This document shows positions 29,685-38,996 of a stretch of DNA of 64,000 bases, in pieces. Location: assembly GCA_022241605.1 (NCBI GenBank), contig JAKOMQ010000014.1, forward strand, positions 39,728 to 103,727, given 5' to 3'. A model generated the notes under the pieces. The model worked only from the letters and a program-made list of their open reading frames with translations, was not told where the DNA came from and did not search any database. A program made the position numbers and the translations under genes. Positions within the stretch are counted from its first letter, which is position 1. Every line of letters starts with the position of its first letter. Origin of the DNA: Aquimonas sp. (lineage in GTDB: Bacteria; Pseudomonadota; Gammaproteobacteria; Xanthomonadales; Xanthomonadaceae).

Positions 29685-29838
29685 CGGGAATCGGGAATCG
29701 GCTGGAAGCCGGCAGCCCGGCCATCGCGTTCTGCCTGACGGCCGTGGATGTCCAGGATTCTTTGCGGCCTGATCCTGGAAAGCGCTCAGATGGCCTCCGC
29801 CTCGCTTCGATTCCCGATTCCCCATTCCCCATTCCCGG
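29685..29838. repeat. Small element bounded by inverted GGGAATC iterons
   Basis: Left cgggaatcgggaatcgg, right cgattcccgattccccattccccattcccgg; ~105-bp centre. Confidence 0.6.
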
Positions 29839-35368: not shown

Positions 35369-35389
35369 GGGATTCGGGATTCGGGATAC
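35369..35389. repeat. Solitary GGGATTC iteron tract
   Basis: gggattcgggattcgggat between prmA stop and sigma-factor start. Confidence 0.7.
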
Positions 35390-36709: not shown

Positions 36710-38077
36710 TCACCCCAGCCCAATCCCCTTCTCCCGCGCCTCGGCCAGTTTCTTTTCCAGGTAATGGATATTGGCGCCGCCGGCCTGGAAGCCGGAGTCG
36801 GACATGATCCGCTGCTGCAGGGGCACGTTGGTCTTGATGCCGTCGACGACCATTTCGGACAGGGCCACGCGCATGCGGGCGATGGCCTGGGCGCGGTCGG
36901 CGCCGTGCACGATCAGCTTGCCGATCATCGAGTCGTAGTTCGGCGGCACGCGATAGCCCTCGTAGATGTGGGTATCGACGCGCACGCCGGGGCCGCCGGG
37001 GGCGTGGAAGTGCTTGATCAGGCCCGGCGAGGGCATGAAGGTCTCGGGGTCTTCGGCATTGATGCGGCACTCGATGGCGTGGCCGCGCAGCACCACGTCT
37101 TCCTGCTTGATTGAGAGCTTGTGGCCGGCGGCGATCAGCAGCTGCTCGCGCACGAGATCGATGCCGGTCACCAGCTCGGTCACCGGGTGCTCGACCTGGA
37201 TGCGGGTGTTCATCTCGATGAAGTAGAAGTGCCCGTTCTCGTACAGGAACTCGAAAGTGCCGGCGCCGCGGTAGCCAATTCGGATGCAGGCCTCGACGCA
37301 GACGCGGCCGATCTGCTCGCGCTGCTCGGGCGTGATGCCGGGCGCGGGGGCTTCTTCGACCACCTTCTGGTGGCGGCGCTGCATGGAGCAGTCGCGCTCG
37401 CCCAGATGGATCGCGCCGCCCTGGCCGTCGGCCAGTACCTGGATCTCCACGTGGCGCGGGTTCTCCAGGAATTTCTCCATGTAGACCATGTCGTTGCCGA
37501 AGGCCGCCTTGGCCTCGGCGCGGGTGGTCTGGATGGCGTTGTTGAGCGCGGCCTCGGAATTCACCACACGCATGCCGCGGCCACCACCGCCGCCAGCAGC
37601 CTTGATGATCACCGGGAAGCCGATCTCGCGCGCGATGCGGATGTTCTCCACGCCCTCATCGCCCAGCGGCCCGCCGGAACCGGGCACGCAGGGCACGCCC
37701 GCGGCCTTCATGGCCTTGATCGCTTCGACCTTGTCGCCCATCAGGCGGATGGTCTCGGCCTTCGGCCCGATGAAGATGAAGCCGGACTGCTCGACGCGTT
37801 CCGCGAAGTCAGCGTTCTCGGACAGGAAACCGTAGCCCGGGTGGATGGCCTGGGCGTCGGTGACTTCCGCCGCGGCAATCAGCGCCGGCACGTTGAGATA
37901 GCTCTCGGACGCCGGCGCCGGCCCGATGCAGACCGACTCATCGGCCATGGCGACATGCTTCAGATTGCGATCGACCGTGGAATGCACGGCGACCGTTTTG
38001 ATGCCGAGCGCATGACAGGCGCGCAGGATGCGCAGCGCGATTTCACCTCGGTTGGCGATGACGACTTTATCTAACAT
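36710..38077 (-). CDS. accC: Acetyl-CoA carboxylase biotin carboxylase subunit
   Basis: [53 protein letters not shown]; open frame continues upstream to 38542 without a stop. Confidence 0.95.
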
Positions 38078-38507
38078 GGGATTCGGGATTCGGGATTCGT
38101 AAGAGCCGGCGTCCTCACCTACTGAGGGCTTGTCCAGCGAGCGGATGAAGGCATTGAGCTTGGCGAAGGTTCGGTCGATCAGTTCTTCGAGTGCACCATC
38201 GCGCGGGGCCATGCGCAGGCGCACGGCGATCTGGATCTGGGTATCGAGCTCTGCCAGCGAGCCTCGCGCCATCGAAAGGAAACGCAGGAACTCGCTGGTG
38301 GAGCGTCGTGCGGCACCCTCGGCGATGTTGGAGGGCACGCTGACCGCGCTGCGTCGCACCTGCGAGGTCAGCCCAAAGCGCTCGCGGTCGGGAAAGCCCG
38401 CGGAGTAGGCGTAGACCGCCTCCACCAGCTGCATCGCGTCGCGCCAGACCTCAAGCCTCGCGTGCGGCCGCTCTTGCGAATCCCGAATCACGAATCCCCA
38501 ATCCCCT
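38078..38507 (-). mobile_element. Iteron-flanked element carrying a 23S rRNA IVS-type four-helix-bundle ORF, inserted between accB and accC
   Basis: [81 protein letters not shown] is the IVS/four-helix-bundle signature; left gggattcgggattcgggattcg, right cgaatcccgaatcacgaatccccaatcccc. Confidence 0.75.
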
Positions 38508-38513
38508 CGGCGC

Positions 38514-38996
38514 TCAGCCGATGACAAACATCGGCTCGTCAAACTCCAGCGGCTTGCCGTTGCCGACCAGGATGGCGACGACGGTGCCTTCGACCTCGGA
38601 CTCGATGGGGTTGAACATCTTCATGGCCTCGATGATGCCGAGCGTGTCGCCGACCTTGACGGTCTGGCCGAGCTTGACGAACGCGGGGGCGTCGGGGTTG
38701 GGCGAGGCGTAGTAGGTGCCGACCATGGGGGAGCGCACCACGTGGCCGTCGGGCAGGGCCTGGCTGGCGGTGGACTTGACGCTGCCGGTGGCCGCCTCGG
38801 TGGGCGAGACCATGCCGGTGGCAACCGGCGCCGGGGCGATGACCAGCGGCGCCTGCACCGGCGCGGGCGCGGGCGCGGCAGGGGCGACCGCCGCACGGGA
38901 GAGCCGCACCGACTCCTCGCCCTCGCGGATCTCGATCTCGGTGAGGTTGGATTCTTCCAGCAGGTCGATCAGCTTCTTGATCTTGCGCAGATCCAT
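38514..38996 (-). CDS. accB: Acetyl-CoA carboxylase biotin carboxyl carrier protein
   Basis: Pro/Ala-rich linker, [23 protein letters not shown] biotinylation motif. Confidence 0.95.

Follow-up and report, generated by a model that had tools for sequence, protein, structure and literature searches.

The heptameric GGGNATC repeats of Xanthomonas and Nostoc have been treated as simple sequence repeats, generally unassociated with mobile elements (Rehm et al. 2015, PMC4692102), and the text of that paper mentions neither accB, nor a four-helix protein, nor a partner gene. The 23S rRNA intervening sequence (IVS) of Coxiella burnetii contains an S23p/IVP ORF that is reportedly unlikely to be expressed (Warrier et al. 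2016, PMC4990558). In the REPIN/RAYT systems (Bertels and Rainey 2011, PMC3116915) gene gaps harbour scattered inverted doublets able to form hairpins, the same repeats bound a cognate gene that encodes a tyrosine transposase (RAYT), and each of several classes of repeat has a gene of its own. In the open-access literature we found no paper linking a four-helix protein to repeats, and a search with the repeat sequence gave no result. The accB-accC insert of Aquimonas sp. described here is one member of a large and apparently undescribed class.

The window (the whole stretch of Aquimonas DNA analysed, 64,000 nucleotides) contains a minus-strand operon in which accB (38514..38996; biotin carboxyl carrier protein, TIGR00531, E 8e-50) is separated from the downstream accC (36710..38077; biotin carboxylase, TIGR00514, E 3e-230) by an insert that direct reading places at 38078-38513 (436 bp). 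The accB stop codon lies at 38514-38516 and the accC ATG, at 38077, follows immediately after the insert; the site is the accB-accC junction and not the inside of a 23S rRNA gene. Near the upstream end there is an array of four heptamers, GGGATTG GGGATTC GTGATTC GGGATTC (38478..38505, minus strand), recognized in the sequence, by the period-7 detector and in pattern matches, and directly after it an inner motif GCAAGAGC (38470..38477, minus strand; consensus GNAANAGC). The downstream array has three GGGATTC units inverted relative to those upstream (38078..38098, plus strand; (GAATCCC)x3 on the coding strand, 38098-38078) and abuts the accC ATG. It is adjoined by an inverted copy of the inner motif, GTAAGAGC (38099..38106, plus strand), recognized from the sequence and the consensus; given as GCTCTTAC, this inverted motif precedes the three inverted units that touch the ATG. 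Inverted arrays and inner motifs together make up terminal inverted repeats. The initial annotation had proposed an iteron-bounded element at this position, and the inverted arrays are present at both ends as it described, but an 8 bp iteron is ruled out, the period being 7 bp (GGGATTC). Its observation that the left array abuts the accC ATG and leaves no visible Shine-Dalgarno sequence is borne out. The two arrays are predicted to pair in RNA as a long stem (z -2.9), and there are no Rfam matches between 35200 and 39600 of the window.

The insert encodes a four-helix-bundle (4HB) protein of 138 codons counted up to the accC ATG (38078..38491, minus strand), and the ORF reaches accC without a stop in the Aquimonas genome. 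Orthologue start positions point to a GTG within the third unit of the upstream array (GTGATTC; 38489..38491, minus strand) as the likely start; in 35 of 37 orthologues at accB-accC the first in-frame start is inside this array, mostly at the GTG of a GTGATTC-type unit or at the ATG of a GGGAATG unit. Matches to Pfam PF05635, 23S_rRNA_IVP (E 4e-32; 110.9 bits against a cut-off of 33.8) and to TIGR02436 (110.3 bits against 24) confirm the earlier assignment to the IVS/four-helix-bundle proteins. PF05635 is the sole Pfam match and there is no match to RAYT, the gene-bearing element encoding the 4HB protein and no transposase. The structure of one homologue, Xanthomonas campestris Xcc0516 (PDB 2GSC; E 3e-40), has been solved; five four-helix bundles are described as forming a ring (Lin 2006, as cited in PMC4990558). 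Among the 37 orthologues the median dN/dS is 0.23 and identities at the three codon positions are 0.73/0.81/0.45; by these measures the ORF is a real gene under purifying selection.

The gene occupies accB-accC in 37 of 150 family genomes, spread over 19 genera, and in one genome of another family; with named records of Rhodanobacter, Luteimonas and Xanthomonas counted, there are 42 accB-accC loci with the acc-type gene. A second 4HB class is found at carA (14 loci), where the carA-carB gap was read in genomes G140, G134 and G086. Empty accB-accC junctions, which the initial annotation had suggested looking for in relatives, do occur and are mostly 6-10 bp long, whereas filled junctions measure 433-487 bp. 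The same annotation had named an ancestral ORF at this junction across the family as evidence against it; the ORF is indeed old there, as the 37 genomes and 19 genera indicate. The 4HB gene persists over the long term in the stop-to-start gaps of conserved operons (accB-accC and carA-carB), and it is probably co-translated with its neighbours.

Arrays of the same kind are dispersed through the genomes. Counted by pattern searches, the motif GATTCGGGATTCG occurs 109 times in the Aquimonas genome and its reversed control not at all; a search of this genome for further array-bounded IVS ORFs, as had been proposed, recovered the abundant array motif, but only one PF05635 ORF in the 75%-complete assembly. 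Within the window, two convergent GGGAATC-type arrays without an ORF between them form a pair (151 bp; 29686..29836) of the same element class as the insert, and at this site genome G068 has a different spacer and mixed unit content. A solo array of about three GGGATTC units lies just downstream of the prmA ORF (35369..35389, plus strand). Arrays are located in gene gaps at several sites, convergent pairs are seen, and 61 of 133 arrays have four units. At seven or more of its eight positions the inner motif consensus follows 32% of 137 arrays, against a background of 1.2%. Because the inner motif and end structure are common to both, the ORF-less elements and the 4HB element can be regarded as one family.

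The abundance of dispersed arrays follows the presence of the gene. Counting double units in the 150 family genomes, we find at least 20 G[GT]GAWTS matches in 36 of the 37 genomes with the acc-class gene and in 16 of the 113 without it (p 5.5e-21), while GGGACYS arrays are present in 10 of 12 genomes with the carA-carB gene and in 6 of 138 lacking it (p 4e-10). With one genome taken per genus, which corrects for phylogeny only in part, the median p values are 8e-7 and 0.004 respectively. The crossed combinations of unit and gene are non-significant (Fisher test, p 0.06 and 0.07), and reversed-pattern controls are near zero, except for G034 in one pattern search. Most within-genus contrasts agree (for example g1, g17 and g21): genomes of g1 have 250, 674 and 752 matches with the gene and 1 without, and in g19 the sole genome with the car gene has 192 GGGACYS matches against 0-1 in the four without. 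The tree of acc-class 4HB proteins also splits the AAT-unit from the ATT-unit alleles, a congruence that is weak evidence alone because the adjoining arrays are physically linked to the gene, but the unit type follows the acc allele genome-wide as well (median ATT fraction 0.25 versus 0.72, p 0.003), with exceptions. Loss or replacement of the gene explains only part of the 16 array-rich genomes without an acc-class gene, and in several array-rich genomes, such as G041, G106 and G116, no 4HB was found. Among cyanobacterial plasmids, dispersal of the same unit is clear in N. edaphicum and Pseudanabaena and absent from the plasmid windows of Nostoc C052, 7120-alpha and N. punctiforme.

The arrays are likewise a general feature of 4HB loci. 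Using a mechanical period detector, with control windows drawn from the same loci, period-7 arrays are detected in 89 of 158 windows flanking 79 family 4HB loci and in none of 155 control windows, and by this detector they lie on both sides at only 38 of the 79; periods of 5, 6, 8, 9 and 10 are found in at most two windows. The association of arrays with IVS ORFs, whose absence had been named as evidence against the initial annotation, is therefore strong at these loci, and the dispersed arrays track the gene as well. In a set of 96 loci that spans many phyla and includes cyanobacterial plasmids, the corresponding numbers are 69 of 192 flank and 11 of 179 control windows, and period-8 (13) and period-9 (6) arrays are also present. 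The ORFs L153, L175, L225, L204 and others, all from other phyla, have flanking arrays with a period of 8 or 9, not 7. Wherever both upstream and downstream copies are clear, the arrays are mutually inverted, and their units vary, including GGGATTC, GGGAATC, GTGATTC, GTGAATC, GGGACTC, GGGACCC, GGGACCG, AAACCTG and others. Genome G035 has five 4HB ORFs (L110, L116, L130, L131 and L136), three of them with different flanking heptamers, of the AAACCTG, GGGAAAT and TCTGAAA types.

Comparison of close relatives reveals exchange of elements in place. Genomes G006 and G059 are 97.8% and 98.7% identical in the 1 kb flanks of the acc insert, but the inserts themselves are only 66% identical, as are the 4HB proteins, and the units are ATT and AAT respectively; in G017 and G092 the flanks are 98.1% and 98.6% identical and the inserts 66%, with 4HB proteins at 69% and different units. 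Between G119 and G065 (flanks 96-100% identical) each of the seven paired elements within 200 kb has been replaced, with a different unit and mostly a different spacer, whereas six of eight solo arrays are unchanged. The elements of G065 are of AAT type, yet the one 4HB detected in this genome, its sole PF05635 match, is of ATT type and almost the same as the 4HB of G119; across these loci (L366-L385) the paired elements switch from the GGGATTC to the GGGAATC type with the same 4HB allele. Copying of the new G065 spacers from its own genome or from a donor was considered and is unsupported (three candidates scored per genome), with the exception of one argF-argG spacer that is 79% like that of G059/G086. 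At argF-argG, lpxB-rnhB and fadB-fadA (names read from the flanks; the lpxB-rnhB comparison excludes G093) there are GGGACCC arrays in G140 and GGGATTC- or GGGAATC-type arrays in its congeners, and the argF-argG gap of G018 is occupied by unrelated sequence. In genus g19, array units are apparently translated at the N-termini of the argG and rnhB products, the unit differing by species (L279, L305, L315, L316, L333 and L337).

The accB-accC gap is itself occupied by different elements. In G140 and G086 it holds an ORF-less GGGACCC element, which is the unit of their car-type gene, and in G034 an ORF-less element with a GGGCTCA unit like that beside its own 4HB gene. The acc element of G098 has a 4HB ORF that is internally deleted, showing that ORF-less copies can arise by internal deletion. 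The suggestion that IVS-type ORFs travel as array-bounded units outside 23S rRNA is upheld by the flanking arrays, the empty junctions and the swapping in place. No clean target-site duplication was found, the species pairs compared differing by more than presence or absence of the element. Copies on two plasmids of Nostoc PCC 7120 were tried as a means of defining the element ends, without success, as the shared segments extend beyond the gene.

Gene and arrays are associated, each gene class with its own unit; the elements share their ends and are replaced in place, and the 4HB ORF is under purifying selection. We infer from this a causal role of the 4HB protein in the spread of the elements, and propose a two-part system like REPIN/RAYT: the insert would belong to a family of mobile elements bounded by arrays, as the member that carries the gene, and the 4HB protein, which is not a transposase, would recognize the arrays. 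In a complete element, short arrays of period 7, commonly of four units, would form an inverted pair, together with the inner motif and a spacer; in most copies the spacer would be short and without a gene, and one or a few per genome would carry the 4HB gene. The protein, pentameric if it forms a ring as in Xcc0516, may bind the arrays as DNA or as hairpin RNA or single-stranded DNA and, with host or borrowed enzymes, could promote the insertion and replacement, at gene gaps, of elements bearing its unit. We know of no catalytic activity in PF05635 proteins, and another enzyme must therefore cut and join the DNA. We consider the proposal fairly probable and hold the causal claim at that level because of the unit switch in G065, the array-rich genomes without a 4HB gene, the lack of a clean duplication and the mixed picture of dispersal in cyanobacteria.

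The alternative that survives best is that the arrays owe their spread to something else (another enzyme, either a RAYT or IS200-type transposase or a reverse transcriptase, or else recombination of one array with another), and that the 4HB gene is a passenger for which array-bounded sites are a safe landing place. PF05635 has no catalytic domain that we know of, array-rich genomes without the acc-class gene exist, the unit switch in G065 is unmatched by its 4HB, and the swapping could be recombination for which the arrays provide the homology. However, each of the two 4HB classes tracks a unit of its own and the gene is maintained by selection (dN/dS 0.23), neither of which is expected of a mere passenger, and we regard this explanation as unlikely. 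We give still less credence to the idea that the 4HB protein is a domesticated host protein and the arrays are selected regulatory or RNA-processing sites, forming G-quadruplexes or hairpins at gene ends, with no transposition. Arrays do occupy gaps between genes, with pairing predicted in the mRNA (z -2.9), they are mostly transcribed and form G-quadruplexes in vitro (PMC4692102), and the 4HB ORF is conserved and overlaps accC. But regulatory sites would not be swapped wholesale, and entire elements, spacer and unit included, have given way to different ones between flanks that are 96-100% identical; the accB-accC gap, moreover, holds different elements in different genera.

The relationship of the 4HB ORF to accC was also a subject of the initial annotation, which described a single frame of 610 codons running through both. 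There is indeed no stop before accC, but a start giving 610 residues would be a TTG inside accB, and from the likely GTG (38491) the open frame is 138+455 codons. Aquimonas is the only case among the 37 orthologues in which 4HB and accC are in frame. In 24 of the 37 the 4HB stop overlaps the first accC codons, as a TAA ending at base 11 of accC in 19 of these 24, and in 12 of the 37 the 4HB ORF ends before the accC ATG. In the close relative G068 the downstream array has four units and the 4HB stop overlaps accC, compared to the three units in Aquimonas, a count that derives from an assembly 75% complete and in 75 contigs; the fusion frame thus arises because Aquimonas has one 7 bp unit fewer, and because 7 is not divisible by 3, a single unit makes the difference between overlap and fusion. 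A fusion to AccC is not supported as a general feature, and with a single orthologue in frame we reject a functional one; translational coupling of 4HB to accC, judged from the overlap of stop and start, is likely the usual arrangement. That the insert is simply a stranded 23S-IVS-type gene in the acc operon, with the fusion as its functional point, accords with the open frame in Aquimonas but is largely refuted by the one in-frame case in 37, by the nearest relative differing by one 7 bp unit and by the presence of arrays genome-wide, and we think it extremely improbable.

Returning to the two-part proposal, a broader version of it, which we put forward tentatively as a serious possibility somewhat short of probable, is a transposase-free class of bacterial mobile elements that occurs across many phyla and depends on a pentameric four-helix-bundle protein with the IVP/Avd fold, which recognizes inverted, lineage-specific arrays of heptamers (sometimes of 8 or 9 bp units) and drives insertion and in-place cassette replacement. 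Its products would include the 23S rRNA intervening sequences, the Xanthomonas and Nostoc heptamer repeats and possibly the cyanobacterial STRR sequences. If this is correct, it would provide a role for the very widespread 23S_rRNA_IVP/four-helix-bundle family with its solved pentameric structure, account for the origin of the abundant heptameric repeats of xanthomonads and cyanobacteria, bear on the long-standing problem of the nature of 23S rRNA intervening sequences, and explain the PF05635 genes in cas and other operons as elements residing in gene gaps. Because the pairing is specific to the unit, the hypothesis can be tested directly. On cyanobacterial plasmids there are 4HB genes with period-7 arrays between cas6 and cas4 (L152, L157, L400 and L401), and these array-flanked genes may explain the published reports of PF05635 in cas loci (PMC3936711).

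Avd of the diversity-generating retroelements (4DWL) is reported to be structurally homologous to Xcc0516 (2GSC) (PMC10053308), although the partners of Avd, a reverse transcriptase and TR/VR repeats, are not present in this insert, and a PDB profile search did not reach Avd; kinship with the retroelements is a lead only. Plasmid pANA02 of Anabaena sp. 90 (L400:2944-4440) has a 4HB gene and, approximately 34 kb away, a retroelement with avd and reverse transcriptase. The Rehm repeats (PMC4692102) correspond to the dispersed part of the present system, with the same 7 bp G-rich unit (here GGGANTN), preference for four units, location in gene gaps and convergent pairs. The Coxiella 23S IVS (PMC4990558) resembles the insert in its protein family, its size of about 430 bp, its inverted ends forming a stem and the tandem GACAGAT heptamers upstream of its ORF, but the element described here resides in an operon of protein-coding genes, has an ORF under purifying selection and is accompanied in the genome by dispersed ORF-less relatives. 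As tandem heptamers precede an ORF of this kind in Coxiella too, the comparison suggests that 23S IVS elements may belong to the same array-bounded class. MITEs and their parent transposons are similar in having terminal inverted repeats, but the gene-bearing element here lacks a transposase. The closest parallel in organization is with REPIN/RAYT, which shares the inverted pairs with hairpin potential dispersed in gene gaps, the cognate gene bounded by the same repeats and the pairing of each of several repeat classes with a separate gene; it differs in that its gene product is a tyrosine transposase rather than a small 4HB protein without a transposase domain, and the repeat unit of the elements described here is a tandem heptamer array and not a palindrome.
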